Assembly: GCA_030680835.1 (NCBI GenBank)
Contig: JAUXUD010000083.1
Coordinates: 1 to 38,651 of the forward strand
Source: Bacteroidota bacterium
Lineage (GTDB): Bacteria; Bacteroidota; Bacteroidia; UKL13-3
DNA length: 38,651 nt
Direction: 5' to 3'
Below the pieces are notes generated by a model that was given only the letters and a program-made list of their open reading frames with translations, was not told the origin of the DNA and did not search any database. The position numbers and the translations under genes are program-made. Each line of letters begins with the position of its first letter. The first letter of the stretch is position 1. Of the stretch, positions 11,646 to 38,651 are shown one piece after another.

Positions 11646-12899
11646 TTATTTAATCTTAAACGCCTTTTTCACTTTATCTACCATGTCTAATTTTTCCCAG
11701 GTAAATAGCTCAACTTTTAGTTTTAAAGTTTTGCCATCCGGGCTTTTAAATTCTTTGGTTACGATTTCGTTTTTACGTCCCATATGTCCGTATGCTGCAG
11801 TTTCGCTATAAATTGGATTGCGTAATTTTAAACGGGTTTCAATTCCATATGGAGTCATGTCAAATAATTTTTCAACCACTTTTGAAATTTCTCCATCAGT
11901 CATTTTTACCGTAGCGGTACCATAGGTATCAATAAAAATACCCATGGGATCTTTAACCCCAATGGCATAAGAAACCTGAACCAAAACCTCGGTGCACAAT
12001 CCTGCAGCTACCAGATTCTTGGCAATATGCCGGGTTGCATAAGCAGCCGAACGGTCAACCTTTGATGGATCTTTACCCGAGAAAGCACCACCCCCGTGGG
12101 CACCTTTGCCTCCATAGGTATCCACAATAATTTTGCGTCCGGTTAAACCGGTATCGCCATGCGGACCACCAATTACAAACTTACCTGTTGGGTTTATATG
12201 ATAGGTAATTTGATCATTAAAGAAGTGTGCGTATTTTTTGTATTTGGTTTTTACCCGTGGAATCAAAATCTTAATGATGTCTTCTTTGATTTTAGCAAGC
12301 ATTTTAGGCTCTTTATCAAAATCGTCATGCTGTGTTGAAAGTACAATGGCTTCAATCCGCACGGGCTCGTTTTTATCATTATATTCTAAGGTAACCTGAC
12401 TTTTTGCATCGGGACGCAGGTATTTGATTGCTTTGTTTTCGCGGCGTAAAGCAGCCAGTTCAATTAAAATTTTATGGGCCAGATCCAGTGCCAATGGCAT
12501 ATAATCATCGGTTTCGTGCGAGGCATAACCAAACATCATACCCTGGTCGCCAGCGCCCTGATCCTGTTTTTTCTTACGGTCAACACCCTGGTTGATATCG
12601 GCCGATTGCTCATGAATGGCAGATAAAATACCACAGGAGTTGGCTTCAAACATATACTCGCTTTTGGTATAACCAATTTTGCGGATTACGCCGCGTGCAA
12701 TTTCCTGTACATCCAGGTATGCTTTCGATTTTACTTCTCCTGCCAAAATAACCTGACCGGTTGTTACCAGGGTTTCACAAGCAACTTTCGACTCCGGGTC
12801 GAAAGCTAAAAAATTATCAATTAATGCATCCGAAATTTGATCGGCAACTTTGTCGGGATGTCCTTCACTTACGGACTCAGACGTGAATAAATAAGCCAT
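11646..12899 (-). CDS. metK: S-adenosylmethionine synthetase
   Basis: A 417-residue MetK. It makes S-adenosylmethionine from methionine and ATP in the cytoplasm. Visible family motifs: [19 protein letters not shown] at the N-terminus (ATP/magnesium site), [14 protein letters not shown] (signature 1 region), [21 protein letters not shown], and the P-loop-like [19 protein letters not shown] (signature 2). Length is normal for Bacteroidota, slightly above the E. coli enzyme. The gene has a promoter about 170-195 bases upstream and a long structured leader (12900-13060), which suggests control at RNA level. Confidence 0.97.
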
Positions 12900-13060
12900 G
12901 TTTTATATATATTGTTTAATGGTTTTTAGGTTTTGCACCCGAAAAACATTACAGACCTTTTGCAGCAATTAACTGAACATTGTTTGACAAGAAAGCCCGC
13001 ATTGTTTTACCACCGTGGTGTTCAGCCCGGTTGGCATCCCGCTCATGCAGGATTCTTAAT
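12900..13060 (-). ncRNA. Structured metK leader, candidate cis-regulatory RNA
   Basis: From the promoter at 13067-13096 the transcript should begin near 13060, giving a leader of about 160 nt. On the plus-strand coordinates three pairings stand out: ATCCCGC/GCAGGAT (13036-13042 with 13047-13053, loop of 4, one G-U); ACCAC/GTGGT (13009-13019); and CTGAAC/GTTCAG (12973-12978 with 13020-13025), which encloses the second hairpin. CATTGTTT is directly repeated at 12978-12985 and 13000-13007. It does not show the SAM-I core I know (GAGGGA...GGCAACC). Because metK makes SAM, SAM or methionine control is plausible but unproven. Confidence 0.45.
12969..13046 (-). CDS. Possible 25-residue leader peptide in front of metK
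   Basis: Within the metK leader an ATG at 13046, about 14 nt from the predicted RNA 5' end, opens a 26-codon frame that ends in TAA at 12969. It begins MSGMPTGLNTTVV and ends CQTMFS; it holds three Met and two Cys. The frame covers exactly the structured part of the leader, and its stop codon lies just past the distal arm of the CTGAAC/GTTCAG helix, the arrangement of a translated attenuator. It may equally be a chance frame. Confidence 0.3.
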   Translation of the reverse strand: MSGMPTGLNTTVVKQCGLSCQTMFS

Positions 13061-13066
13061 GCACTG

Positions 13067-13096
13067 CAAAAGTATTGCAATTAAGGAAAAAACAAA
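13067..13096 (-). promoter_or_regulatory. metK promoter
   Basis: Read on the minus strand: TTTG (13096-13093), 18 bases, then TACTTTTG (13074-13067), a perfect TANNTTTG. Transcription should start near 13060. An imperfect inverted repeat (TTAATGCA / TGCAATTAA, 13056-13063 and 13076-13084) spans the -7 element and could be an operator. Confidence 0.65.
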
Positions 13097-26465: not shown

Positions 26466-27560
26466 ATGGATTGGAAACTATCGGCTATGGAGCACCGGGG
26501 TGAAAAGAGGATTGCCATCAGGTTTGGGTTTGATGATGCATTAACAAAAGCCGTACGGCAATTTAAGGATGCCCGGTGGAGCCAGACACAGAAATGCTGG
26601 CATGTGGCAGATAATGACCATAACAGGGATGCACTTGGTTTTAACCATAGTCTGTTAACAATTTCTTCCATTAAAACAATTGAAAAACCGGTAATAATTA
26701 ATCCTGAATTAGCAGAAGATATAGAAATAAATATAGAAAAATTTAAACGGTGGATGCATTCGAAACGGTACAGCACAAATACGGTTAACACATATACCGA
26801 TGCAATAAAATCGTTTTTTAAATTTCACATCAACAAACCAATATCTGAAATTAGCAATTCAGACATCATTAATTACAACAATGATTATATTTTAAAGCAT
26901 AAGCTATCCGCCTCGTACCAAAATCAGGTTGTAAATGCAATCAAATTATTTTTTGCTGAAATAGAAAATAAAAAGATTGAAATAGAGTTAATTCACAGAC
27001 CAAAGCGACCGAAACTATTGCCAAACGTATTGAGTAAAGAAGAAATAAAAGAACTATTGGTGGCCTTAGGAAATATTAAACACCGAACCATGCTTTCTTT
27101 AATTTACAGTTGTGGTTTACGAAGAAGTGAGTTATTGAATTTGAAGCCAAATGATATTGATTCGATAAGAGGGGTAATTATTATACGGCAGTCGAAAGGG
27201 AAAAAGGACCGTATTGCACCTTTATCACAAAAAACGATTGAGATGATAAGAATCTATCAAGAAAGTTATAAACCGGGCACATGGTTATTTGAGGGGCAGA
27301 TAAAAAATGAACAATATGACGAAAGGAGCCTGGCAAGTGTTTTAAAGCAAGCCCTGGCAAAAACAGCGATAAATAAACCGGTAACATTACATTGGCTCAG
27401 GCACAGTTATGCCACACATTTATTGGAAGCCGGAACAGATTTACGTTACATACAGGAAATATTAGGCCATAGCAGCAGCAAAACAACCGAAATATATACC
27501 CACGTAAGCACGAAAAGCATCCAACAAATTAAAAGCCCCTTCGATGATTTGGATACCTGA
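26466..27560 (+). CDS. Tyrosine recombinase (Xer/IntI-like), probable cassette integrase
   Basis: A 364-residue tyrosine recombinase. Residues 1-75 form an extra N-terminal domain (about MDWKLSAMEHRGEKRIAIRF to HVADNDHN) common in Bacteroidota recombinases. The core-binding SAM-like domain is at about 85-170 and the catalytic domain at about 185-355, with Arg219 (CGLRRSE), Lys244 (QSKGKKDR), His309 and Arg312 (HWLRHSY), His335 (LGHSS) and Tyr344 (IYTHV) all present. The ending (KSIQQIKSPFDDL) recalls the IntI ending (GG..V.SPLD), but the 16-plus residue IntI insertion between patches II and III is missing. Unlike most integrons it reads in the same direction as the cassettes, so the attachment site lies after its 3' end. 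It is probably the enzyme for the array, by position. Confidence 0.88.
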   Translation: MDWKLSAMEHRGEKRIAIRFGFDDALTKAVRQFKDARWSQTQKCWHVADNDHNRDALGFNHSLLTISSIKTIEKPVIINPELAEDIEINIEKFKRWMHSKRYSTNTVNTYTDAIKSFFKFHINKPISEISNSDIINYNNDYILKHKLSASYQNQVVNAIKLFFAEIENKKIEIELIHRPKRPKLLPNVLSKEEIKELLVALGNIKHRTMLSLIYSCGLRRSELLNLKPNDIDSIRGVIIIRQSKGKKDRIAPLSQKTIEMIRIYQESYKPGTWLFEGQIKNEQYDERSLASVLKQALAKTAINKPVTLHWLRHSYATHLLEAGTDLRYIQEILGHSSSKTTEIYTHVSTKSIQQIKSPFDDLDT

Positions 27561-28808: not shown

Positions 28809-29298
28809 GACGGAATTAGATTATCAAAAGGAAATAACAGATTATAAAACCCGCTTTACAAGATGGCAGCAATTATCAATTAGCCAACTCTCCGCGACAA
28901 ATAATCTATTTCTGACATTCACGACAGGATTATTGGCTTTCTCGGTTACGCAGACAGGTTTAAAGGTAGCAACCAACTGCTTGTTAACCTTTGGTGTTGT
29001 TTTTAGTTATCTATTTTTAGTAATCGCTCTTGTAACTGGCGCAGCATTGACAATTAACCGCCTTACTGACTTTCGCAAGACAAAGGAATTAGTTAGACAA
29101 AGGCGCCAAAAGTTTGAAACAGAAAGGAACATTCAAGCACATGGCGACATTGATAAAATAAAAAAGAGCATTTCAGACTTGGAAGCTCAAACAATTAAAC
29201 ACGGCAAAGACACTTGGGACTTACTGAATTGGCAAGTAATAACTTTCACTATTGGTGCGGTGCTTATGCTGACAATAATAGTGCTGACGAAGAATTAA
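28798..29298 (+). CDS. Small multi-pass membrane protein (cassette 1)
   Basis: The start ATG at 28798 (MDNKTELDYQKEITDYKTRF) overlaps the stop of the TPR gene by 11 bases; the longer frame back to 28693 lies inside the TPR gene and is rejected. 166 residues: a soluble helix (RWQQLSISQLSATNNLFLTF), two close membrane helices at about 34-51 and 57-83, a charged coiled helix (FRKTKELVRQRRQKFETERN), and a final helix at about 145-165. Similar 2-3 TM proteins with the NNLFLTF pattern are often coded alone in gene cassettes. The stop codon is five bases before the core of site A. Confidence 0.7.
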   Translation: MDNKTELDYQKEITDYKTRFTRWQQLSISQLSATNNLFLTFTTGLLAFSVTQTGLKVATNCLLTFGVVFSYLFLVIALVTGAALTINRLTDFRKTKELVRQRRQKFETERNIQAHGDIDKIKKSISDLEAQTIKHGKDTWDLLNWQVITFTIGAVLMLTIIVLTKN

Positions 29299-29302
29299 AA
29301 CA

Positions 29303-29439
29303 GTGCATAACAGCGCACTTGCGAACAAGCCGGGCTGACGTGGTAATTTGAGCTAATGCATTTCTAATAAACATTATCTTAGCGTGACAATTAATCGTTC
29401 TAAATCCCGGCCTGCGCAAGTGCGCGAACCGTTACCACC
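29303..29439 (+). repeat. attC-like site A
   Basis: 137 bp. Left core GTGCATAAC (29303-29311), one A, arm GCGCACTTGCG (29313-29323), then GCCGGG; right side CCCGGC (29406-29411), TGCGCAAGTGCGC (29413-29425), five bases GAACC, core GTTACCACC (29431-29439). The stem is near-perfect over about 20 bp with a central region of about 70 nt. An internal GGGCTGACGTGG (29332-29343) is shared with site B. It lacks a T tract, so it is not a simple terminator. Confidence 0.85.
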
Positions 29440-29691
29440 AATGCAAAAAGACGACAATTAAATGTTCGACATTCTGACTTTTGACATCGCAACTTTAGTA
29501 TGACGATTAGAAAATAAAATATAGACGGATTTACGAAATCAGTTTCGTTTTTATAATAATAGGCATTCTATACGTAATCTTAACTCATAGACAATCGTTT
29601 ATGCAATCGAGCTGACTAAGTGTAAAAAAACAACTAAAGTGTAATAAATATTTTTTATCATTGTGTAATTTGTTCACTAAATAATTTCAGA
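29440..29691 (+). other. Untranslated 5' part of cassette 2
   Basis: AT-rich stretch between site A and the 29692 gene with no credible reading frame. TGTAATTTG at 29663-29671 is a weak candidate -7 element about 21 bases before the ATG. Nothing else is recognised. Confidence 0.3.
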
Positions 29692-30297
29692 ATGCTAAGA
29701 CTTCTTCCTCTTCTTTTAACTATATATAGCTTCAATTTAAATGCCCAAATACCAGATTGGCAAATAAAAGAAAACACTATTGACAGCATACATAGAGTTT
29801 TAGCAAAAAATTATATCAACAAAAAATTAGGAACTGAATTTGTAAAGAAACATTTAACCTATCAGAATACATATAGATGGGGGCAAAGAGCTGTAACTTA
29901 TTTAATTAAAAACAGTAGATGTAGACACAATATTGTTCCAATTGTTTTTAATGAAACTCCTATAAATAATAATTATATTATAGATACTAATTACATTAAA
30001 ATAGATCGAAAACATATTTTAAATTCACTTAATAAAAACTGTCAAAACTATTTCTGGATTGATTCAATTGAAGCACTGAAAATAGCAAAATCAGTAATCG
30101 ATTTTAAGAACTACAGTTACACAACGCAATTCATTTTTAAATTTTCTGGCGATTGGAAACACTTGAAAACATTACCCGGATGGAGTTTTACAATTACACA
30201 TTATTCAGATACAAATGGAAATGCTAGTGGAGAAAGTATCAGCATAGATCCAGCGACTGAAGAAAGTGATGTTGGGCAATGGCGATCTATTCCTTAA
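29692..30297 (+). CDS. Exported protein of unknown function (cassette 2)
   Basis: A 201-residue protein with a signal peptide (MLRLLPLLLTIYSFNLNAQ), so periplasmic or secreted. The mature part is rich in Asn, Lys and Ile and reads as mixed helix and strand; the C-terminal half (QFIFKFSGDWKHLKTLPGWS, ESISIDPATEESD) looks like a beta-structured domain. I recognise no family. Base composition is more AT-rich than the chromosomal genes on the left, fitting acquired DNA. It is the only intact gene of its cassette. Confidence 0.65.
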   Translation: MLRLLPLLLTIYSFNLNAQIPDWQIKENTIDSIHRVLAKNYINKKLGTEFVKKHLTYQNTYRWGQRAVTYLIKNSRCRHNIVPIVFNETPINNNYIIDTNYIKIDRKHILNSLNKNCQNYFWIDSIEALKIAKSVIDFKNYSYTTQFIFKFSGDWKHLKTLPGWSFTITHYSDTNGNASGESISIDPATEESDVGQWRSIP

Positions 30298-30322
30298 TTT
30301 ATCAATTACCTGTTTATTTAAT

Positions 30323-30506
30323 ATGGAAAATCAAACAAGTTTCACCAAAAAATTAAAAGGACATCACTCACAGCCAATCGTTTCACTTAGACGAATTATT
30401 GACAATAATATTTATTGCCGCAGCTGGACTATTTGCTTTAATCATATCTAACCAACTTGACAACTTAAGACGCATTGTCTTAGCATCACCTCACTTTTCA
30501 TACTGA
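30323..30506 (+). pseudogene. Possible frameshifted small membrane protein (cassette 2)
   Basis: An ATG at 30323 opens MENQTSFTKKLKGHHSQP..., which stops at 30451. The next frame (+1) continues from about 30355 to a stop at 30506 and codes DELLTIIFIAAAGLFALI, a good transmembrane helix, followed by SNQLDNLRRIVLASPHF. One base gained or lost in the A-rich stretch near 30343-30358 would join them into a protein of about 60 residues. It may be a broken gene or chance. Confidence 0.3.
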
Positions 30507-30557
30507 TATTTATTGCATTTAAAATAAACCTCATCGACACGTAGACAAAAATGCACT

Positions 30558-30693
30558 GGTGGTAACACACGGTAAAAATCAATTGGGGCTGACGTGGAAA
30601 TGCGGAACTTTTTCTTTTCCTTTACAATTCGTTACACGGAAGGTTTTGTGGCTTCGAATCCCCAACTGCTTTTACCGTGAAAACGTTATATGC
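30558..30693 (+). repeat. attC-like site B
   Basis: 136 bp. Left core GGTGGTAAC (30558-30566), one A, arm CACGGTAAAA (30568-30577), then TTGGGG (30583-30588); right side CCCC (30660-30663), arm TTTTACCGTG (30670-30679), five bases AAAAC, core GTTATATGC (30685-30693). Its left core is complementary to the start of cassette 2 over 14 of 15 positions (GTTACCACCAATGCA at 29431 against the complement of 30552-30566). It shares GGGCTGACGTGG with site A. Confidence 0.85.
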
Positions 30694-30739
30694 AAGGCTA
30701 TTATAGTTTATACAGACGCAAACAATAAAACAAAATGAA

Positions 30740-31429
30740 ATGACAATATTGCTAATTATTACTTCGGGAATTGTTTTAATTTATCTAGTTATCAAACTGG
30801 TATCAAAGAAATCGGAGTACCCTCCCACTATTAAAAATGAAGGGAAAAATACGCCAGAAGTTAATATTAAATCACTTTTGAAAAGGGCAAATGAAAAGGG
30901 AATTATTAAAGATTTCAAAAGTGCTGTCGCTATTACGGACAAAATTATCCTGCTGTATCCTTCGAATTATGATGCTTTAGTAATTAGAGCAAATTCATTG
31001 GGAGCATTAAATTTTAATTTAGAAGCAATTGACGATTATGAAAAAGCATTAAGCATAGACAATTCAGACCCAAATATTATTGGGCTACTTGGCTTAACTT
31101 ATCATATAGTTGGGGAGTTTGAAAAAGGACAAGAGAAGTTAAAATTATCCATTCAAATGGGCTATAAGCTTTATGAAATGAATTATAATATGAAATTAAA
31201 AATGCCAGACAGCGTCAAAAGTATGCTTGTGGAAAGATCAAAAAAACCAGAAAATCTAGTCCGTAGAAATCCTAGTGATTTTGTTGACAATCTTTCAGAA
31301 ACCGACCATATTGAATTTAAAAGGGCATTAAAGAATCATTTACCGACATTGCAACATTCATTATCCCTTGACCCAAATAATACTAAGTTAAAGGAACTTT
31401 ATGAATTTACTTTAACATATCTTGACTAG
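30740..31429 (+). CDS. Membrane-anchored TPR protein (cassette 3)
   Basis: A 229-residue protein with an N-terminal membrane helix (MTILLIITSGIVLIYLVIKLV) and a cytoplasmic TPR-like region at about 45-150 (AITDKIILLYPSNYDALVIRANSLGAL, EAIDDYEKALSIDNSDPNII, LGLTYHIVGEFEKGQEKLKLSIQMG). The rest is helical. It is the first gene after site B, 47 bases inside the cassette. TPR proteins with one anchor usually gather partners at the membrane; the partner is unknown. Confidence 0.7.
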   Translation: MTILLIITSGIVLIYLVIKLVSKKSEYPPTIKNEGKNTPEVNIKSLLKRANEKGIIKDFKSAVAITDKIILLYPSNYDALVIRANSLGALNFNLEAIDDYEKALSIDNSDPNIIGLLGLTYHIVGEFEKGQEKLKLSIQMGYKLYEMNYNMKLKMPDSVKSMLVERSKKPENLVRRNPSDFVDNLSETDHIEFKRALKNHLPTLQHSLSLDPNNTKLKELYEFTLTYLD

Positions 31430-31516
31430 AATATTTATAGTACGCTAAATAAATATGGCCGACAATAGTCAGATTAATAACATAACATTCATAATTTCAT
31501 TCTCAATAAAAGAAAA

Positions 31517-32509
31517 ATGAAAATAGAAGGACTAATCTCGATGACAAAATTACAAGATTTTTATAACTACACGTCCGAAAACCCCCAAGTTTCTATTTGG
31601 AATCAACTTCTTTTATATTCTGATTACAATGTTCTAAAAAAAACATGGCTCAATCATACGGAAGAAGAATATATTTATGTCGCCACGAGTATTAATCAAG
31701 CGCATGAATACTTTAAAGCTAGCAATGGCTGTAGCATAAAAACGAGGCCATTGCTTTTATACTATTGTTTTCTTAATCTGACAAAAGCATCACTATTTTT
31801 AATCGAGGACAAGCTACCTAATTCTGCTCATCATGGGTTAGGTAAACCCGGCATAAATCAAGATATTTTAAAAGTAACAGCTACTTCTGGAGGAGGATTA
31901 TTTAAAGACCTCTCAACTTATTTCAAGTTTAGTTATGCTGATAAAACCAAGTTTTCCTTTGAGCAATTAATAAAGAACATTCCAGAGTTAATATATCCGA
32001 TAAAAGCATTCTTTGGATTAGATTCTAATCTTGTCTATTTAGACGTAAAAAATTATTTATCAAAGGGATTTGAAATCAGTTTACCAGAAGTCTTATTTAA
32101 TAGCAGCCCAAGTTTCAAAAGGTTTTTGGAAGACTTCGAAAAGGAAATATCAAATGGAAACGTTTTTTTAACTTATCATTCCAAAAACCAATTAAATGAA
32201 ACCGAACGGGTATCAGAAGGAAGGGAAATTCTGAAAAAATATTGCCAGTATAGCGTCCTTGACTATGAATATTATTTCAACGTTGATGAAAATGCTATAC
32301 CTATTGAATCTTCATATTATGGTGCAATGTTTATTCTCAGCAGTATCGTAAGATATTATCCAACAGAAATCTCAGCTTTTACTATCGAAAAAGGTGAATC
32401 ATCTGCAGGTTGGTTTATAAGCCAATTTTGCGACATAGCAGCGCGAGTTTATCCCAATCTTATGATGAGCGCAATGGCTAATAAACAATTAAAATATCTG
32501 AATCATTAA
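31517..32509 (+). CDS. YaaC-like protein (cassette 3)
   Basis: A 330-residue soluble protein. The segment SINQAHEYFKASNGCSIKTRPLLLYYCFLNLTKASLFL followed by an HGLG motif matches what I know of the YaaC family (paired helices, RP.L.YY..LN..KA..L, then HGL), seen in many bacteria and common in defence or mobile regions. The C-terminal half is helical (YYGAMFILSSIVRYYPTEIS). Its biochemical role is unknown. Flanking gaps of about 90-100 bases hold no recognisable attC-like site. Confidence 0.5.
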   Translation: MKIEGLISMTKLQDFYNYTSENPQVSIWNQLLLYSDYNVLKKTWLNHTEEEYIYVATSINQAHEYFKASNGCSIKTRPLLLYYCFLNLTKASLFLIEDKLPNSAHHGLGKPGINQDILKVTATSGGGLFKDLSTYFKFSYADKTKFSFEQLIKNIPELIYPIKAFFGLDSNLVYLDVKNYLSKGFEISLPEVLFNSSPSFKRFLEDFEKEISNGNVFLTYHSKNQLNETERVSEGREILKKYCQYSVLDYEYYFNVDENAIPIESSYYGAMFILSSIVRYYPTEISAFTIEKGESSAGWFISQFCDIAARVYPNLMMSAMANKQLKYLNH

Positions 32510-32609
32510 ATTGACTAATCAAAGAAAAGATAAATAATAAATAACGCCAAACCATAAGCATCAAAAAACTCAAAACATTTTCAATAAATAAAAAAAAACA
32601 ATTAATCCC

Positions 32610-32867
32610 ATGACAGATAAAATCATTCTTCCATTCAATCCGGGTGATGTAGTAATTTTAAATTCCTCACCAGACATTCCAATGACAGTATTGGATTGCT
32701 TCGATAGTTCAGAGAAGGCGACAAACGGGAATCCGATATTAACCGTTAATGTTGTATATTTAGACAGAAATTGTAATCCAGTTCGCAAAGGATTTCCACA
32801 CAATATTCTTAGCCTATTTAAACCAGTAACCGATTTCATTCAGCCTATTGGTTTTAAAAATATTTAA
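32610..32867 (+). CDS. Small DUF2158-like protein (cassette 3)
   Basis: 85 residues, soluble. FNPGDVVILNSSPDIPMTVLDC followed by VNVVYLDRNCNPVRKGFPHNILSLF resembles the short DUF2158/YodC-type pattern (F..GDVV.L.S....MTV...). Such proteins fold as small beta barrels and have no known activity. An antisense frame of similar length covers the same stretch but shows no family pattern. Confidence 0.5.
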   Translation: MTDKIILPFNPGDVVILNSSPDIPMTVLDCFDSSEKATNGNPILTVNVVYLDRNCNPVRKGFPHNILSLFKPVTDFIQPIGFKNI

Positions 32868-32904
32868 TATTTAGCACTTTTCCTCATTAGAACAGTTAGC
32901 CTTA

Positions 32905-33375
32905 ATGAAAATTTTAAAAATATTCGCAATAACGATTGCTCTTTTAGGACTTTTTTATGCACTTAATTGGGGGGACCATAGATGGGAACAACAAATAATG
33001 GAAATGTCAAAAAAAGATAGCTTAATTCTGGTTCACAAAATGACGGAATATAAAGAAGTGTTTAAACCTTGGACTTGGTTTGGTGAAAGGGGCGCTACAC
33101 TTTTAAGGTTTACTAAGAAAGGATCTTATATGTGCCTAGACAGTCAATATTGTTTTATCAAAATAATTACCTTTATGCAGTCGCAAAATAATAAGCCAGA
33201 TAAATTCTTTGCGGACAATTATTTAATAGATATGTTTAATAATCAATATGCAGAATTAGAAGACTCTGAGGTGGCAATGTTGGGCCTTACATATATGGAG
33301 GGGTATAAGTTTAAGCCTGTGCGGGATGATGAAATTACTAAACTTCTAAAAGATTGGATGTTAGCTAATAAATAA
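32905..33375 (+). CDS. Exported or membrane-anchored protein of unknown function (cassette 3)
   Basis: 156 residues. The first 20 (MKILKIFAITIALLGLFYAL) form a signal peptide or anchor. The rest is a mostly helical acidic/aromatic domain (FKPWTWFGERGATLLRFTKKG, FADNYLIDMFNNQY, EITKLLKDWMLANK). I recognise no family. The 189 bases after it, up to the next gene, hold no feature I can support. Confidence 0.55.
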   Translation: MKILKIFAITIALLGLFYALNWGDHRWEQQIMEMSKKDSLILVHKMTEYKEVFKPWTWFGERGATLLRFTKKGSYMCLDSQYCFIKIITFMQSQNNKPDKFFADNYLIDMFNNQYAELEDSEVAMLGLTYMEGYKFKPVRDDEITKLLKDWMLANK

Positions 33376-33564
33376 TATTATTAGTACTATGATTATTTTT
33401 TAGTAATCCAATGAAGCCCAAGAAATTAAAGATGGTATAATTAAATGGAAGGACGAGATTTACCACTACCAAGCCTAATCGTTTATGATTTTTTTTACAT
33501 TTACTAAACTTGAAAATGACGAGTAAACAAGAGAATACAAAACTGGCAAAAACTAAACATCATA

Positions 33565-34233
33565 ATGAAAAATTGGTTGCATACATTTTTTAATGGCTAT
33601 CCTTGGGTCGAATTTCTAATTGCCTGGGTTGGTATAGGCCTAGCAGCTGTGGCTGTTAACTTTGCAGTAGACAAAATCCTTGAATTATTGGGCGACAAAA
33701 GGAGGATTCAATTTCGGTTTGTGAAAAGCATTTTCTGGGGGTTAGCAATTCCAACAATCGGAATTTGGATGTGGTTTTCTTCCTATGACAATCCATTCAA
33801 TGAATACAAGCTAATCACGAGCAGTGAATCTACGAAAGGACTAATTACGAAAGTTGAACCGGAATCTGACTTAGTTGAATATAATGACAGCAGAAGATCC
33901 GCAGTAGTTTACTTCTATTATTATGAGTTTAATTTTACTTTACCTAATGGAAAGTTTATTACCAGCGGAGGTAAGGAAGGTGGAGATATTCCTAATTACT
34001 TAACCAATGTTGACAATGTGCCATATCCTGTCGAAGTAGAGTATTTAACGGACAATCCCGAAATTAATAGAGTGAAAGGAATGTCGAGTGGAAATAAAAC
34101 AATTTACGAATGGTTTAGATATCCAATTCTCATGGGGGTTGTTGTTCTCTTAATATGTTCGTACTTCGGTTACTTAATTTTTAAGGGCGGACTAAAAGAT
34201 TACAAAGCAGAATTAAGCCAACTTTCAATTTAA
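33565..34233 (+). CDS. DUF3592-like membrane protein (cassette 3)
   Basis: 222 residues with membrane helices at about 13-35, 51-67 and 190-210. Between the last two lies a beta-rich extracytoplasmic domain with the DUF3592 pattern: GLITKVEPE..., a Tyr-rich strand VVYFYYYEFNFTLPNGKFITSGG, VPYPVEVEYLTDNPEINRV. This kind of protein is common and of unknown function. Its stop is about 20 bases before the promoter of the SymE gene. Confidence 0.5.
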   Translation: MKNWLHTFFNGYPWVEFLIAWVGIGLAAVAVNFAVDKILELLGDKRRIQFRFVKSIFWGLAIPTIGIWMWFSSYDNPFNEYKLITSSESTKGLITKVEPESDLVEYNDSRRSAVVYFYYYEFNFTLPNGKFITSGGKEGGDIPNYLTNVDNVPYPVEVEYLTDNPEINRVKGMSSGNKTIYEWFRYPILMGVVVLLICSYFGYLIFKGGLKDYKAELSQLSI

Positions 34234-34253
34234 AAAATCCCCAGCGTTATTAT

Positions 34254-34282
34254 TTTGTATTTCACAATTTTTTTTATCTTTG
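34254..34282 (+). promoter_or_regulatory. Promoter of the SymE leader
   Basis: TTTG (34254-34257), 17 bases, TATCTTTG (34275-34282): a perfect Bacteroidota promoter. The RNA should begin at about 34287, at or next to the ATGCGAACAACCCAA leader segment. GTTATT (34246-34251) just upstream may be a relic of a cassette start, matching AATAAC in the decayed site C. Confidence 0.7.
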
Positions 34283-34284
34283 TC

Positions 34285-34452
34285 ATGCGAACAACCCAAA
34301 TGAAATCCAATGACAAACAAATTAATGTTTAACGATATGCTCGGCAGAGAGCAGGTGGAAGTCCTGCGCATTCCAAGTCTTCTTGGGTGTTCGCAGCACT
34401 GCTGGGCTACTCATTTAAAAAACTTCAAAAGTTATGCGAACACCCAAGAAGA
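34285..34452 (+). promoter_or_regulatory. SymE mRNA leader with mutually exclusive hairpins
   Basis: Segment 2, TCTTCTTGGGTGTTCGCA (34378-34395), is a perfect 18-base complement of segment 3, TGCGAACACCCAAGAAGA (34435-34452), which holds the start codon of the SymE gene (ATG 34434-34436). Segment 1, ATGCGAACAACCCAA (34285-34299), at the 5' end of the RNA, can instead pair with segment 2 with a single bulge. Two short frames lie in the leader: 34285-34332 (15 residues, MRTTQMKSNDKQINV) and 34325-34474 (49 residues), the second running through segment 2 and over the SymE start. Pairing 2:3 would hide the start; pairing 1:2 or ribosome movement would free it. Confidence 0.6.
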
Positions 34453-34646
34453 AAAAACCAAGCGGACAACTTGAGGTTAGAAGCTTGAAAATTCAAGAGC
34501 TAATCAGGTTCAACCGGCGTAGCCGGACAACTGTGCCTGAAATTACATTATGTGGTAACTGGCTTGACAAATTAGGCTTTACGCCAAAAAGCAGAGTCAA
34601 CGTTACGACAATGAACAAATTACTCATCATCCGTTTGGACGAGTAA
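34434..34646 (+). CDS. SymE-family toxin (SpoVT/AbrB-like fold)
   Basis: 70 residues. A basic N-terminus (MRTPKKKKPSGQL) is followed by the SymE pattern PEITLCGNWLDKLGFTPKSRVNVTTMNKLLIIRL, in which the GxWL..xGF..g..V.V core matches the SymE family. In E. coli SymE is an SOS-induced toxin silenced by an antisense RNA (SymR); the family is related to AbrB-type DNA-binding proteins and some members bind nucleic acid. Here the start codon sits inside an 18-bp hairpin and a strong promoter is 150 bases upstream, so RNA-level control is likely. No LexA-like site was identified. Confidence 0.72.
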   Translation: MRTPKKKKPSGQLEVRSLKIQELIRFNRRSRTTVPEITLCGNWLDKLGFTPKSRVNVTTMNKLLIIRLDE

Positions 34647-34652
34647 AAATCG

Positions 34653-34682
34653 AAAGCCGGGAGTTTGCAAATTCCCGGCTTT
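34653..34682 (+). terminator. Terminator of the SymE gene
   Basis: AAAGCCGGGA (34653-34662) pairs with TCCCGGCTTT (34673-34682), loop of 10 (GTTTGCAAAT), followed by a T-rich stretch. It starts seven bases after the stop codon. Confidence 0.85.
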
Positions 34683-34771
34683 CCTTTGTTTATGCTGACA
34701 GTTGGCCTACGCCATTTCTTTGCATTTCATAGGACAACGGCTGCAAAACCGGAAACCGCCCACCAAATAAC
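34664..34771 (+). repeat. Direct repeat copy 1 (second copy 36851-36957)
   Basis: About 107 bases are repeated downstream of the AAA/membrane pair. Both copies start with TTTGCARATTCCCGGCTTTC and end with a long conserved block (CTTTGCATTTCATAGGAC, ACGGCTGCAAAACCGG, ACCGCCCA) that runs into ATAAC, the left core of sites C and D. Copy 2 keeps only the right arm of the terminator hairpin, so copy 1 is probably the ancestral form. Confidence 0.8.
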
Positions 34772-34893
34772 CCGGCATATAGATTATTTTGGTATTGGCT
34801 TTCACCATAAATTTTTCTACTTTCGTTTATTCAGTGTATGCGGACTGTTTTGTGGTGTCACATCCAAAATTTCCCATCTGCAAAACCTTGAAT
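34763..34893 (+). repeat. attC-like site C, decayed
   Basis: Left core CCAAATAAC (34763-34771), then GCATATAGATTATTTTGG (34775-34792); right side CCAAAATTTCCCATCTGC (34864-34881), then AAAACC and TTGAATAG where GTTA is expected. The inner 95 bases (34775-34869) are identical to site E (37768-37862) at 88 positions, so it is a true relative, but the arms no longer match well and the right core is broken. It probably no longer recombines. Confidence 0.65.
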
Positions 34894-34935
34894 AGTAAGG
34901 CAAGGGACGATGCACATGGACAAGACTAAAAGAAA

Positions 34936-36282
34936 ATGAAGATTAAAAAGGTAAAGTGGAAGAATCACCCTATTTTAGGTGACTTAGAATTGGACTTCAT
35001 AGACACGACTACGGGAGACCCTTTCGACACAATCATATTCGCTGGTGAAAATGGCACTGGAAAAACTACGATATTAGAATCAATAAGTACATTTCTCAAT
35101 CGAGGTTCGTTTGAATATTTTGACTCGATAGAATATATTATTAATGGAAGAATTTACAAAGCCGTTCCGTTAATTCACCCAAATATTAAAGACTTTTACA
35201 ATATGATAGATGATAGCGGAACAACAACGGCTATGAACTCAAATAAAAACAACAATCCTACTGCAATTGATACAAACACACTAGATATAAGGCACTATGG
35301 TTGTATTTTTTCAAAAGCACGAGCAGATTATAGGACAACTAAAATTACATCAACGACAACCAAGGCATTGGACTTAGAAAAATATGATATTGACGACGAG
35401 GATGATTTCACATCTTCAAAACAGCTAATTGTCGATGTGCAAAATCAAGACAATTCCAGCTATGCCGAAATTAACAAAAACTTAGGAGCAACCCCTAAAT
35501 CTTGGAATGAATTTTACCCTACCTCAAACATTTATCGTTTTAAAAATGCTTTCGATAATTTTTTTAATAAGCTAGAGTATGAGAAGGTCACTGATAACAA
35601 TTCGGAAAAAGAGATCCTATTTAAAAAGAACGATAAATTTATTTCTATAGACAAGCTTAGCACAGGCGAGAAACAAATTGTTTTCCGGGGTATTTATCTT
35701 TTAAAAAATAATAATAAACTTAACGGTTCTGCAATTATGGTCGACGAACCGGAATTGAGCATGCATCCGAAATGGCAAAAAAATATTTTAAAATATTACA
35801 AAGACTTATTCACTGAAACGGATATCCAAAAAACACAGCTTTTTATTGCTACACATTCCGAACATGTATTAAATGAAGCATTAAAAGACAAAGCCCAAAA
35901 TATTGTTATTGCGCTTAACGAAACCAGTGGCGTTATTAATGCCAAAAGAATTGATGCACCATCTGTTTTACCAAGTATTACAAACGCAGAGACAAATTAC
36001 CTAGCATTTGATATAGTTTCAAATGACTACCATATTGAGTTATATGGATGGCTACAACAGAAGGAAAGCAAAAGCACTGTAAAATCTTGTGATGACTTTA
36101 TAAAAGCCCATCATCTTTACTCCTCAACTACGCATGATAAACCATCGTCATTTGGTAACACGAATTATGAGACGTTAAGCACATTTGTTAGAAATGCGAT
36201 TGACCATCCAGACTTGACCAGAACCTACACGGAAATTGAATTAAGAACGTCGACTGAATTATTAATTGAGCTCTGTAGATGA
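34936..36282 (+). CDS. AAA/ABC-type ATPase with C-terminal Rx4H motif, putative defence protein
   Basis: 448 residues. It begins MKIKKVKWKNHPILGDLEL, as in OLD/RecF-like ABC ATPases, with Walker A GENGTGKTT (37-45), signature LSTGEKQ (241-247), Walker B AIMVDEPELS (Asp270, Glu271) and switch His307 (ATHSEH). The last 100 residues are a helical domain ending with FVRNAIDHPDLTRTYTEIEL; Arg419-Asn-x3-His424 fits the Rx4-6H motif of HEPN ribonucleases. There is no TOPRIM domain. Its stop overlaps the next start by four bases (ATGA), so it works with a membrane partner. ATPase + effector pairs of this shape are common in phage defence; the function is an inference. Confidence 0.8.
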   Translation: MKIKKVKWKNHPILGDLELDFIDTTTGDPFDTIIFAGENGTGKTTILESISTFLNRGSFEYFDSIEYIINGRIYKAVPLIHPNIKDFYNMIDDSGTTTAMNSNKNNNPTAIDTNTLDIRHYGCIFSKARADYRTTKITSTTTKALDLEKYDIDDEDDFTSSKQLIVDVQNQDNSSYAEINKNLGATPKSWNEFYPTSNIYRFKNAFDNFFNKLEYEKVTDNNSEKEILFKKNDKFISIDKLSTGEKQIVFRGIYLLKNNNKLNGSAIMVDEPELSMHPKWQKNILKYYKDLFTETDIQKTQLFIATHSEHVLNEALKDKAQNIVIALNETSGVINAKRIDAPSVLPSITNAETNYLAFDIVSNDYHIELYGWLQQKESKSTVKSCDDFIKAHHLYSSTTHDKPSSFGNTNYETLSTFVRNAIDHPDLTRTYTEIELRTSTELLIELCR

Positions 36283-36836
36283 ATAAGGAACGACAAATAG
36301 AGAAATTTATTAGACGATCAATTAAGAATGGTGGTGAATTTTCAAATGATGCGGAATTGCAATCACTGGTTGAACAAATGACGAATGACGAAATTGCTCT
36401 ATTTTGGTTGCGTTTTTCTGCCGGTAGAGCATTTAGCAGAATAAATTCAAACATTGAGTACTGGAAAATTAAGAAACAACAAGAACAGTTTAATTTAGAA
36501 GTAAATAGCTACATGTTTTATCCGGATAAAAAAGACGCTAAAGGTAAAAATATTATCGACAGAGATAGATATATAGATCATGTTGTTGGCCATCTTAAAA
36601 ATCACATTATCCAAAATATTCAATCAGATTTGCATTTTAGAAATGCATCCTTTTGGGAGAAAGTACCTTATTATACGATAGTCTCAACATTGGTTATGGT
36701 GCCAATCTTCATTATATGTTCCATTTTAGAACGCAACAACTATTACAGGGGAGGAATGCTCTTTTGTTACGGCATATACATACTTAATTTTTTGCTTTAT
36801 GGTGTTGCCAAGCTAATACTAAGAAAAAGAATTTGA
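36279..36836 (+). CDS. Membrane partner of the AAA ATPase
   Basis: 185 residues, translated from an ATG that overlaps the ATPase stop. The first 120 residues are charged and helical (MNKERQIEKFIRRSIKNGG, LWLRF-type segments); two membrane helices follow at about 127-148 (YTIVSTLVMVPIFIICSIL) and 155-175 (MLFCYGIYILNFLLYGVAKL), and the protein ends in RKRI. It could be a membrane-damaging effector or a sensor. I recognise no family. Confidence 0.65.
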   Translation: MNKERQIEKFIRRSIKNGGEFSNDAELQSLVEQMTNDEIALFWLRFSAGRAFSRINSNIEYWKIKKQQEQFNLEVNSYMFYPDKKDAKGKNIIDRDRYIDHVVGHLKNHIIQNIQSDLHFRNASFWEKVPYYTIVSTLVMVPIFIICSILERNNYYRGGMLFCYGIYILNFLLYGVAKLILRKRI

Positions 36837-36850
36837 AAACTAGTTTACTA

Positions 36851-36957
36851 TTTGCAGATTCCCGGCTTTCCTTTGTTAGCCCGACTAATGGACTACAACT
36901 TTGCTTTGCATTTCATAGGACGACGGCTGCAAAACCGGGGACCGCCCAGCATATAAC
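36851..36957 (+). repeat. Direct repeat copy 2 (first copy 34664-34771)
   Basis: See copy 1. It lies 14 bases after the stop of the membrane partner gene and runs directly into the left core of site D. The left arm of the terminator hairpin is missing here, so termination at this copy is doubtful. Confidence 0.8.
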
Positions 36958-37082
36958 AGCAGGCACCAAAAAGTGGCGGTTCATTGTTCGCTGAACAATT
37001 TTGTGTATGTTTGAAATGCAGTTTCCCGAACGGTATTCAGTGGTAACTCCGCCACCTTCTGGTGCCTGCAAACCGTTAGTGG
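36949..37082 (+). repeat. attC-like site D
   Basis: 134 bp. Left core GCATATAAC (36949-36957), one A, arm GCAGGCACCA (36959-36968), then GTGGCGG (36973-36979); right side CCGCCAC (37049-37055), arm TGGTGCCTGC (37060-37069), five bases AAACC, core GTTAGTGG (37075-37082). The left core is the complement of GTTATATGC at the end of site B, 6.3 kb upstream. The rest of the 317-base gap (37083-37153) is the start of cassette 4. Confidence 0.85.
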
Positions 37083-37153
37083 AAAGCCCGAGTGGTAAAG
37101 TATTTGGCTAAACCTGCAATTCTTGTTTATCTTTTTTTTCGTATATTCGTGAC

Positions 37154-37609
37154 ATGAAATTTTACGTGGACACATCGGTTTGGGGCGGTTATGAGGACAA
37201 AGAGTTTAGCGAATGGACTATTCCATTTATTGAACAGGCCCGACAAGGTAAATTCACTATAGTTTTATCCGACGTTACTATCGGAGAACTTCAAGATGCC
37301 CCAGTAAAAGTTCGAGAATTGCCGACTACTATTCCTCCAGAATTTATTGAACTGGTAACTATTACGAACGAGCAACTTGACCTGGCAAACAAATATGTTC
37401 AAGAAAGTGCCCTAACGCAAAAATTTCATACCGACGCTCAACACATCGCTATATCAAGTATCTTAAAAGTTGACAGTTTAGTAAGTTGGAATTTCAAGCA
37501 CATGGTAAACTTTTTTCGCATACGACAATATAATTCAATCAATTTAAAATTCGGTTACTCGACTATCGACATCCGGACACCAAAGGAGGTTACTTATGGA
37601 GACGAATAA
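37154..37609 (+). CDS. PIN-domain toxin-like ribonuclease (cassette 4)
   Basis: 151 residues forming a PIN domain: Asp6 (YVDTSVW), Glu45 (SDVTIGELQDA), Asp94 (FHTDAQHIAIS) and the fourth position at SWNF(K)H (112-115) give the acidic metal site of VapC-like ribonucleases. The spacing and the D..H.A.A....D.LVSWN pattern are those of the long PIN subgroup found in many Bacteroidota. It overlaps the next small gene by 14 bases. The order toxin first, partner second is the reverse of usual vapBC. A weak promoter (TTG 37123-37125; TATTCGTG 37143-37150) lies just before the ATG. Confidence 0.82.
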   Translation: MKFYVDTSVWGGYEDKEFSEWTIPFIEQARQGKFTIVLSDVTIGELQDAPVKVRELPTTIPPEFIELVTITNEQLDLANKYVQESALTQKFHTDAQHIAISSILKVDSLVSWNFKHMVNFFRIRQYNSINLKFGYSTIDIRTPKEVTYGDE

Positions 37610-37763
37610 ACATTCAGACCAAGATTTTCATGCAGTTGAATTCATGCGCAAGGTTCGCACCGAATTAACAGAGCAGTTTTTGCACGACAAGCAAAAGTAT
37701 CTGGACTATCTTAAGCGAGCCATGGACGACTTCAAGTTGCGGCAGAAGCGGGCCAACCACTAA
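37596..37763 (+). CDS. 55-residue putative antitoxin of the PIN protein
   Basis: The ATG at 37596 lies inside the last codons of the PIN gene and is preceded by a strong Shine-Dalgarno AAGGAGGT (37583-37590), rare in this window. The product is a charged helix (FMRKVRTELTEQFLHDKQKY, then LDYLKRAMDDFKLRQKR), the size and nature of a small antitoxin that wraps a PIN protein. Its TAA stop (37761-37763) is part of the TAAC core of site E, as usual for integron cassettes. Antitoxin function is inferred from pairing. Confidence 0.7.
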   Translation: METNKHSDQDFHAVEFMRKVRTELTEQFLHDKQKYLDYLKRAMDDFKLRQKRANH

Positions 37764-37890
37764 CACAGCATATAGGTTATTTTGGTATTGGCTTTCACTG
37801 TAAAATTTTCTACTTTCGTTTATTCAGTGTAAGAGGACTGTTTTGTGGTATCACATCCAAAACAACCCATATGCTGAAACCGTTATGGGC
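37757..37890 (+). repeat. attC-like site E
   Basis: 134 bp. Left core CCACTAAC (37757-37764), one A, arm CAGCATATAGGTTATTTTGG (37766-37785); right arm CCAAAACAACCCATATGCTG (37857-37876), five bases AAACC, core GTTATGGGC (37882-37890). The arms agree at 18 of 20 positions. The centre has its own small hairpin (CACTG/CAGTG). Sites C and F are relatives. Confidence 0.88.
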
Positions 37891-37898
37891 AACCCTAA

Positions 37899-38369
37899 GT
37901 GACGACAATCGTGACAGACAACAATAACATTATTGACAATATCAATGAAGTAACTGATAAAGTTTACGTACAACTAATTGACGGTTCAACTGCTTGGGTT
38001 CCGACCAATGCTCACAAACTTGACGAAAACAAATACTTGATTTTGCCAGACAATGAATTTAATGAAAATGATTTTATTAATTTAAGCGAATTTATCCCAG
38101 GTGACATTGTTGCACTAAGCTCCCAGACCTTCCACGATGGGACGCAAGGTTTCGTTTGTAAAAAACTTTTTAAACCCTCAACAAGACAAGACAAAAAATT
38201 CTTTGAGTTTTTGTTCAAGACGGCATTTGGAGAATTTGAAATAAATAAAAATAATCTTGAATATTATAAATCTGAAATTGAAAAAATAAAGGAGTTGAAA
38301 GCTTTAGGGAAAAACTTCTACGACTCCACACTAATGACCATTGAACAACTTGAACATTGCGAATCATGA
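37899..38369 (+). CDS. Unknown cassette protein with GTG start (cassette 5)
   Basis: The frame starts at GTG 37899, with another GTG at 37911; no ATG fits before the conserved-looking part, so GTG use is likely. 156 residues, soluble and acidic. VYVQLIDGSTAWVPTNAHKL and FINLSEFIPGDIVALSSQTF suggest two small beta-barrel units; the C-terminal half is helical (KNNLEYYKSEIEKIKELKAL). It is the only gene of the cassette and starts just nine bases after the core of site E. I recognise no family. Confidence 0.6.
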   Translation: MTTIVTDNNNIIDNINEVTDKVYVQLIDGSTAWVPTNAHKLDENKYLILPDNEFNENDFINLSEFIPGDIVALSSQTFHDGTQGFVCKKLFKPSTRQDKKFFEFLFKTAFGEFEINKNNLEYYKSEIEKIKELKALGKNFYDSTLMTIEQLEHCES

Positions 38370-38385
38370 CCAGCAAAAAAGGGCA

Positions 38386-38519
38386 GCCCATAACAGTGCA
38401 TATAATTAATTTTGGTCTTTGTGGTTTCCGGTAAATTTTCTACTTTAGTTCAATCAGTTTCGGTGGACAGAATTGCGGCATCATATCCAAAACTAATCAT
38501 ATGCACGGGCCGTTATAGG
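38386..38519 (+). repeat. attC-like site F
   Basis: 134 bp. Left core GCCCATAAC (38386-38394), one A, arm GTGCATATAATTAATTTTGG (38396-38415); right arm CCAAAACTAATCATATGCAC (38487-38506), five bases GGGCC, core GTTATAGG (38512-38519). The arms agree at 18 of 20 positions. About 70 percent like site E in the centre. Its left core is the complement of GTTATGGGC at the end of site E. Confidence 0.88.
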
Positions 38520-38651
38520 AAACCATGTGCTTCACTTCCTCCACTCACCCAACGCACAACCTCCACTCACCTCCACGCGGCCTGACACATAGATTGAATA
38601 ATTTGCTGACCCTGGAGCTTTCTCTTTTAAATTCGTTAAGACTCATGCTTG
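38520..38651 (+). other. Start of cassette 6, cut by the window
   Basis: No coding call is made. An ATG at 38525 is open to the window end but its product is low-complexity (Ser/Thr/His/Pro). CCTCCACTCACC occurs twice. The cassette should end, beyond the window, with a core complementary to GTTATAGG. Confidence 0.3.

Follow-up and report, generated by a model that had tools for sequence, protein, structure and literature searches.

A covarying three-segment leader before symE and other small Bacteroidota genes as a candidate translational switch

How might a small gene be controlled when its start codon lies in a perfect hairpin? The question is raised by a SymE-family gene in the 38,651-nucleotide stretch of Bacteroidota DNA analysed here (the window; contig JAUXUD010000083.1, forward strand). 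An earlier note, made from the sequence alone, described this hairpin and pointed out that its anti-start strand can pair instead with what would be the first bases of the transcript. It read the arrangement as a cis-acting version of the control that an antisense RNA exerts on SymE in E. coli, and took the near copy of the start region for a tandem duplication recruited as a decoy. By comparing the locus with other SymE loci and with larger sets of genomes, we confirmed the observation as a whole, the hairpin as well as the competing segment 1. The interpretation was right in outline and too narrow in scope: it had missed a folded core (P3, P4 and P5), a fixed spacing to a promoter-like box and the presence of the same RNA before other genes.

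Two segments of the leader pair with one anti-start segment

The gene, its three segments and the flanking elements all lie on the plus strand of the window:

34275..34282 (+), −7 promoter-like box TATCTTTG (TAnnTTTG type), 4 nt upstream of segment 1
about 34286..34299 (+), segment 1, which pairs with segment 2; predicted transcript 5′ end, with +1 at ~34287
34378..34395 (+), segment 2, the anti-start segment and common partner of segments 1 and 3
34434..34646 (+), SymE-family gene, 70 aa (PF08845, 36.6 bits, E 4.8e-9, cut-off 29)
34435..34452 (+), segment 3, the SymE start region, with an 18-bp pairing to segment 2
34645..34690 (+), inverted repeat 3′ of SymE with 83% complementary arms, likely an intrinsic terminator

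PF08845 (SymE_toxin) is the sole Pfam family in the protein, which places it outside the Hok family, and the E. coli-type equivalog model PRK13605 scores 25.2 on it against a cut-off of 132. The start hairpin is indeed perfect, with 34378-34395 paired to 34435-34452 at 18/18 positions; in a wider inverted-repeat scan it has 23-nt arms that are 91% complementary. The T and G of the SymE ATG (34434-34436) lie inside the helix and the A outside. Folding of 34254-34480 gave a more stable structure than all 200 shuffled versions (z −3.85). We also recovered the near copy of the start region, 34282-34305 being 79% identical to 34431-34454, and its pairing with the anti-start strand, 34286-34312 being 70% complementary to 34369-34395. 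Segment 1 pairs with segment 2 at −19.4 kcal/mol, a value matched by none of 500 shuffles of segment 1.

The gene sits within an integron-like cassette array (window 26466-27560 and ~29296-38520) whose integrase matches XerA/integron-integrase models and in which, by eye, repeats of the form GCATATAAC...CCGTTATG separate short plus-strand genes. Downstream, 34936-36836 encodes an ATPase similar to the defence proteins PtuA/AriA and, after it, a protein of 185 aa with no Pfam or PADLOC family. Elsewhere in the window, a SAM-I/IV riboswitch (RF01725, 53 bits, 12970-13067, minus strand) lies upstream of an apparent SAM synthetase gene (11646-12899, minus strand).

The three segments change together among SymE loci

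With the SymE protein as query, a scan of genome contigs yielded 11 loci, eight of which carry the leader (L034, L035, L036, L037, L038, L040, L042 and L043). RNA-model and pattern searches added L047, L056, L082 and L099; with the window included, the same leader stands at 13 distinct SymE loci, in which all three segments change together. L099 is outside the 12-locus statistics and enters only the counts of frames, promoters and antisense boxes. L084 and L040, identical at 450/450 bases, count as one locus; L073 and L087 both denote the L047 place; and no count includes L046, a core at a contig end without SymE.

Across the 12 loci the segments carry different codes that are matched at segment 2 (for example GCGAACA, GCGTACA, GCGAAAC and GTCCACA). 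Segment 1 pairs with its own segment 2 at a mean of −18.2 kcal/mol, compared with −10.9 (sd 1.1) for segments exchanged at random between loci, and segment 3 does so at −24.6 kcal/mol, compared with −14.7 (sd 1.5). For both helices the observed mean was reached by 0 of 100,000 reshufflings, a count that overstates independence because the loci are related by descent. L099 provides a further matched triple with the code GCAAACA (−15.8 for segment 1 and −26.8 for segment 3). Two loci are exceptions. Segment 1 of L037 is mismatched (−8.5 kcal/mol) and was equalled by 9/500 shuffles, against 1/500 in L034 and 0/500 in the remaining ten loci; in L042 the segment 3 pairing (−10.9 kcal/mol) is weaker than the segment 1 pairing (−12.9 kcal/mol).

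The cis three-segment arrangement is thus both conserved and covarying in 13 SymE loci. A tandem duplication recruited as a decoy is not supported by this pattern: segment 1 resembles the start region only at the bases that pair with segment 2, and the likeness is kept by covariation even where the sequence has been fully replaced, as in L056. At this same locus we observed an intact leader in front of a SymE start that reads ATA rather than ATG (1589-1591), with no upstream frame.

Conservation among SymE genes, which the earlier note had proposed as a check, gave a divided answer. Both pairings are kept in all eight leader-bearing homologues found by protein search. By contrast, three of the 11 (L039, L041 and L044) have no core match at E up to 10, nor has L033, the one SymE place besides the window that a search of the window's family returned. 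A Pfam search of 395 phylum genomes found 22 SymE places in 16 genomes, with the leader at one of them (L073). SymE does not need the leader, because 21 of these 22 places are without it, and leaderless SymE genes are common. At L041 (~1447-1475) a SymE gene has a promoter-like box and a segment-1-like start and no folded core, which suggests that the leader may be lost without loss of SymE.

A conserved folded core lies between the segments

Alignment of the 12 loci revealed a folded structure between segments 1 and 3, given here in window coordinates:

34339-34407 (+), whole folded core
34339..34347 (+), P3 5′ strand, partner 34399-34407; 98.1% of cells paired, changes on both sides in 4/9 pairs
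34348..34350 (+), AGA joint between P3 and P4, invariant in 12/12 loci
34351..34367 (+), P4 hairpin (34351-34355/34363-34367); 98.3% paired, changes on both sides in 3/5 pairs
34356-34362 (+), P4 cap TGGAAGT, T-loop-like; TGNRAGT (RNA UGNRAGU) in 12/12 loci
34373..34386 (+), P5 hairpin (34373-34377/34382-34386); 82.8% of cells paired, 3′ strand belonging to segment 2
34396..34398 (+), GCA joint between segment 2 and P3; NCA in 12/12 loci
34399..34407 (+), P3 3′ strand, covarying with 34339-34347

P3 encloses P4, P5 and segment 2. On the 12 loci, 94.2% of the 226 core cells are paired, a proportion that falls to 33-51% when the partner strands are slid by 1-3 columns. Both sides have changed in nine of the 19 core pairs (shuffled mean 3.7; 1/500 shuffles as high) and in 21 cells (shuffled mean 6.0; 0/500 as high). 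P5 is the weakest helix and, by eye, is one base out of register in L034 and L047. Among the 169 cells of P3 and P4 we counted 20 G-U against one A-C, an imbalance that identifies the mRNA as the strand that folds. When the window alone was folded in nested prefixes, with pseudoknots excluded, P3 reached a probability of at most 0.16 and P4 of at most 0.43, so that the core rests on covariation and not on energy. Its invariant unpaired bases suggest that something may bind the core.

The promoter-like box is a second fixed point. We take TAnnTTTG to be the Bacteroidota −7 promoter type, and from the position of the box the transcript is predicted to start at G34287. The 8-mer ending 4 nt before segment 1 matches TAnnTTTG exactly in 9/13 SymE loci and is off by one or two bases in the other four (L037, L042, L043 and L082). 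Box and segment 1 are always 4 nt apart, whereas 47-72 nt separate segment 1 from P3 (12 loci), a contrast that supports, but does not prove, the placing of segment 1 at the 5′ end.

We take the P4 cap to fit the T-loop consensus and, in this respect, presumably to resemble a feature of the cobalamin riboswitch. The cobalamin riboswitch itself was rejected because no model match was found, whether in the window at gathering score, in its leader and the 11 SymE loci at E up to 10, or in L056, L073, L082 and L099 at E up to 1. An HDV-like ribozyme and a group II fragment were likewise set aside, by reasoning on their topologies, since the helix order differs. No Rfam family was found at the leaders scanned (the window, the 11 SymE loci, L056, L073, L082, L099 and the class-B loci described below). 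With E allowed up to 10, the window leader drew 31 Rfam matches. Of these, 29 are hairpin-type models on or around the perfect hairpin, namely 28 miRNA models and one ribosomal-protein leader (16.5 bits against 47.4); the other two are group-II-D1D4-4 (9.7 bits against 49) and CrcZ (8.1 against 95). Matches below gathering score at other SymE and class-B loci fall outside the leaders.

Distribution of the leader

The RNA model detected the leader in 1/64 genomes of the window's family (the window's own), in 2/395 phylum genomes (12 candidates scored per genome), in 4/141 genomes of the family of the Olivibacter genome (two of class A and two of class B) and in 1/35 genomes of the family of G643 (G643 itself), and pattern matches occurred in 7/395 class genomes and 2/249 genomes of one genus; these frequencies are lower bounds because the large samples were passed through strict filters. 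The model found it in 10/12 genomes reached via SymE loci. Of eight pattern loci tested beyond the window's own, it confirmed three (L082, L084 and L087). The named relatives that bear the leader are all Bacteroidota: Olivibacter, Chitinophagaceae, two Sphingobacterium, two Dyadobacter and two metagenome-assembled genomes. Olivibacter sp. XZL3 and Sphingobacterium detergens are examples of strains with it.

Searches for the SymE protein in plasmids and phages, and for the window leader in plasmids, gave no match; nor did one class-B stretch sought in plasmids and another sought in phages, or pattern and protein scans of IMG/VR. Among 20 neighbour proteins from 10 SymE loci, no Pfam family was common to different loci.

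The same RNA precedes other small genes

When the 12-locus model was run on the 141 genomes, it returned L099 and two weaker matches of 31.3 and 31.5 bits (E 4.4e-4 and 7.6e-4), both of which precede small genes other than SymE. We collected eight such elements (class B, B1 to B8), seven in the 2.3-Mb genome G1096 (three at L103, three at L107 and one at L106) and one in G1040. Their model scores range from 16.5 to 31.5 bits; B3 (18.3 bits, E 0.014) and B5 (16.5 bits, E 0.042) are assigned on their matched segments and layout, because the score alone is insufficient. A strict class-B pattern matched 1/242 genomes in a phylum sample, G1096 itself.

In class-B elements, segment 3 again holds a start codon, segment 2 is present, and the core consists of P3, P4 with the same cap and, by eye, a hairpin at the P5 position. 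The box 4 nt before segment 1 reads CACGTTTG in five of the eight, and in all eight it starts with CA, not TA. Between segment 1 and P3 they carry GGAGCAATCC or a close variant, by eye an extra small hairpin. The segment 3 codes differ among the elements (GCTAACCGAG, GCAGAACGAG, GCACAATCAG, GACAACCGAG, GCGACAAATG, GCAAAACGAG, GCGAAACCAG and GCGAACACCG), and the segments again fit their own partners, with mean pairings of −13.6 for segment 1 and −15.2 for segment 3 against −4.4 and −4.7 with foreign partners. Out of the 40,320 possible assignments, only the true one reaches the observed pairing for segment 3, and only the true one and the B1/B4 swap do so for segment 1. B4 is the exception here: its segment 1 is mismatched and still carries the B1 code.

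For the 21 pairs among the seven G1096 copies, mean identity is 0.6 in segment 2 against 0.8 in the rest of the core. This difference suggests, without proving, that the codes of class-B copies have diversified. The proteins of B1, B3, B7 and B8, the four scanned, have no Pfam match above cut-off, and a BT4734-like primase gene lies downstream at L103. At L103 (5735-6403, minus strand) and L107 we also observed class-B units in tandem, in which the frame of the small gene continues in frame across the next RNA element. The leader is a general module and not a SymE-specific duplication.

A candidate switch and its competitors

Comparison among loci establishes the pairings, the core and the strand that folds, as well as the spacing to the promoter and the occurrence of the element ahead of other genes. 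From these sequence relations we consider it probable that the structured leader is a cis-acting translational switch in which segment 2 has two mutually exclusive partners. In the first state the 5′ part of segment 2 would close P5 while its 3′ part pairs with segment 1 beside P3 and P4, leaving the SymE start free; in the other, the whole of segment 2 would pair with segment 3 and mask the start codon. That the first of these is the ON state, and that translation is the step controlled, we infer. Transcription would favour the segment 1 pairing first, with displacement once enough of segment 3 has emerged. In nested prefix folds the segment 1-2 helix had a mean probability of 0.72-0.93 up to 34442, where 8 nt of segment 3 are out, and the segment 2-3 helix reached 0.61 at 34446 and 0.98 at 34452. 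Because segment 3 would displace segment 1, the leader would come to rest in OFF unless some trigger stabilises the first state. Candidates for that trigger are a ligand or protein on the core, or ribosomes on an overlapping frame. Two hallmarks of a riboswitch are present in the comparison: a conserved, structured cis domain upstream of the gene (13 SymE loci), and pairings that form a mutually exclusive, start-masking platform.

Two upstream frames bear on the role of ribosomes:

34310..34474 (+), ATG frame of 54 codons running across the SymE start in another frame, with a counterpart in 11/13 SymE loci
34387-34488 (+), GTG frame, less conserved than the ATG frame

The main rival to a core-sensing switch is coupling of the hok/mok kind, in which ribosomes on the overlapping frame open or cover the SymE start and the folds set the timing, with no ligand. 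We hold this possible, if doubtful, as a full account, and it could be part of the same device. The ATG frame crosses the SymE start in 10/12 loci and in L099, is 52-69 codons long and begins 24-28 nt after the presumed 5′ end (47 nt for L037). Its phase with respect to the core is not the same in all loci, so openness rather than peptide sequence seems to be kept. Translation of mok is required for hok according to a review (PMC4147584). The frame is missing, however, in L056 and in L042, which has a TTG frame that stops 13 nt before SymE; four of the eight class-B leaders (B1, B3, B4 and B8) are without any ATG; and coupling alone leaves the invariant unpaired bases of the core unexplained. 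The earlier proposal that two short frames would carry ribosomes through the hairpin is supported in part: the ATG frame could do so in most SymE loci, but not in those class-B leaders. Its second frame is less well kept: GTG, ATG or TTG stands at that position in 10/13 loci, and the frame crosses the SymE start in 7/13. With an open frame over the SymE start in 11/13 loci, ribosomes may still have a role.

A further reading, which we regard as unlikely, makes the leader a duplicating module with a private address, so that trans silencing by a leader, or by a fragment of it, would reach no gene but its own. Where several copies share a genome, their codes would then diverge at all three places together and so stay apart, as toxin-antitoxin pairs do, with the core serving as the shared sensor and the code as the address.

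Less probable again is a SymR-like antisense RNA as the main regulator, with the conservation of the leader reflecting that RNA. E. coli symE is repressed by the antisense RNA SymR, and Kawano and co-workers described conserved nucleotides ahead of some symE genes and raised the possibility of non-coding RNAs (PMC1891008). Seven of our 13 loci have, 7 nt upstream of SymE, a −7-like box on the minus strand that departs from the consensus at one base. Yet exact minus-strand boxes occur within the region searched in only 2/13 loci (L037 and L047), none of them within 60 nt of the start, and the excess of G-U over A-C in P3 and P4 points to the plus strand.

That the conserved element acts as DNA, as an attC-like recombination site or a transposon end folded in single-stranded form, is highly improbable. 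The array in the window does contain attC-like repeats (by eye) and an integrase, and L036 has an integrase gene upstream, but other loci carry the leader in unrelated contexts, the attC-like repeats lie elsewhere in the array, and the start hairpin lacks the attC box arrangement (by eye). The leader also has a promoter-like box at its head and a coding start at its end, and contains the G-U pairs typical of RNA. A chance hairpin with a partial tandem duplication in one genome, which the copy-like look of segments 1 and 3 might suggest, can be dismissed, being refuted by the 13 SymE loci and eight other elements that share the arrangement with different segment sequences.

Significance and relation to known systems

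If the translational switch proposed here is right, the leader belongs to an RNA class that has not been catalogued, one where the start codon and the 5′-terminal bases of the message compete for the anti-start segment. The class would have a conserved core and would serve SymE and other small Bacteroidota genes, some in mobile settings. Matched changes in its three covarying segments offer a direct test of the mechanism, and the copies within one genome could serve as naturally occurring orthogonal switches. For some Bacteroidota symE genes it would point to a mode of control as well, in keeping with a 2007 conjecture that non-coding RNA may regulate those symE genes that have no transcription factor next to them (PMC1891008).

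Among the matches listed from the open-licence PMC literature, no title or abstract opening describes this leader, and 'SymE' is absent from the main text of two motif papers. Mutually exclusive leader folds are already known; the leader RNA class itself is uncatalogued in Rfam. Riboswitches, for example the cobalamin class, have a conserved core, a T-loop-capped hairpin and a start-masking alternative. Here, unlike in riboswitches, there is no Rfam match, and the competitor strand is the 5′ terminus.

Several toxin mRNAs share parts of the design. E. coli symE/symR likewise holds a SymE-family protein under tight control, there by antisense RNA, LexA and Lon (PMC1891008) and here, as proposed, by a cis-folded leader. 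By description, tisB resembles our leader in a pseudoknot near the 5′ end and a masked start, and has a standby site and processing of its own (PMC7708055). In hok/mok/Sok and aapA, the start is masked and transient structures form during transcription, as proposed here, and hok has an overlapping upstream frame like that in most of our SymE loci; long-range 5′-3′ folding, processing and an antisense RNA are features of those systems (PMC4147584, PMC6733600). The nearest working analogue, by resemblance, appears to be timP/TimR, again a toxin mRNA with mutually exclusive folds, in which the active fold of timP contains a pseudoknot essential for translation (PMC11228461). TimP is a membrane toxin of enterobacteria whose antitoxin is an sRNA, whereas the leader described here has no known antitoxin RNA, precedes a SymE protein, carries a T-loop-like core and uses its own 5′ bases as the competitor.
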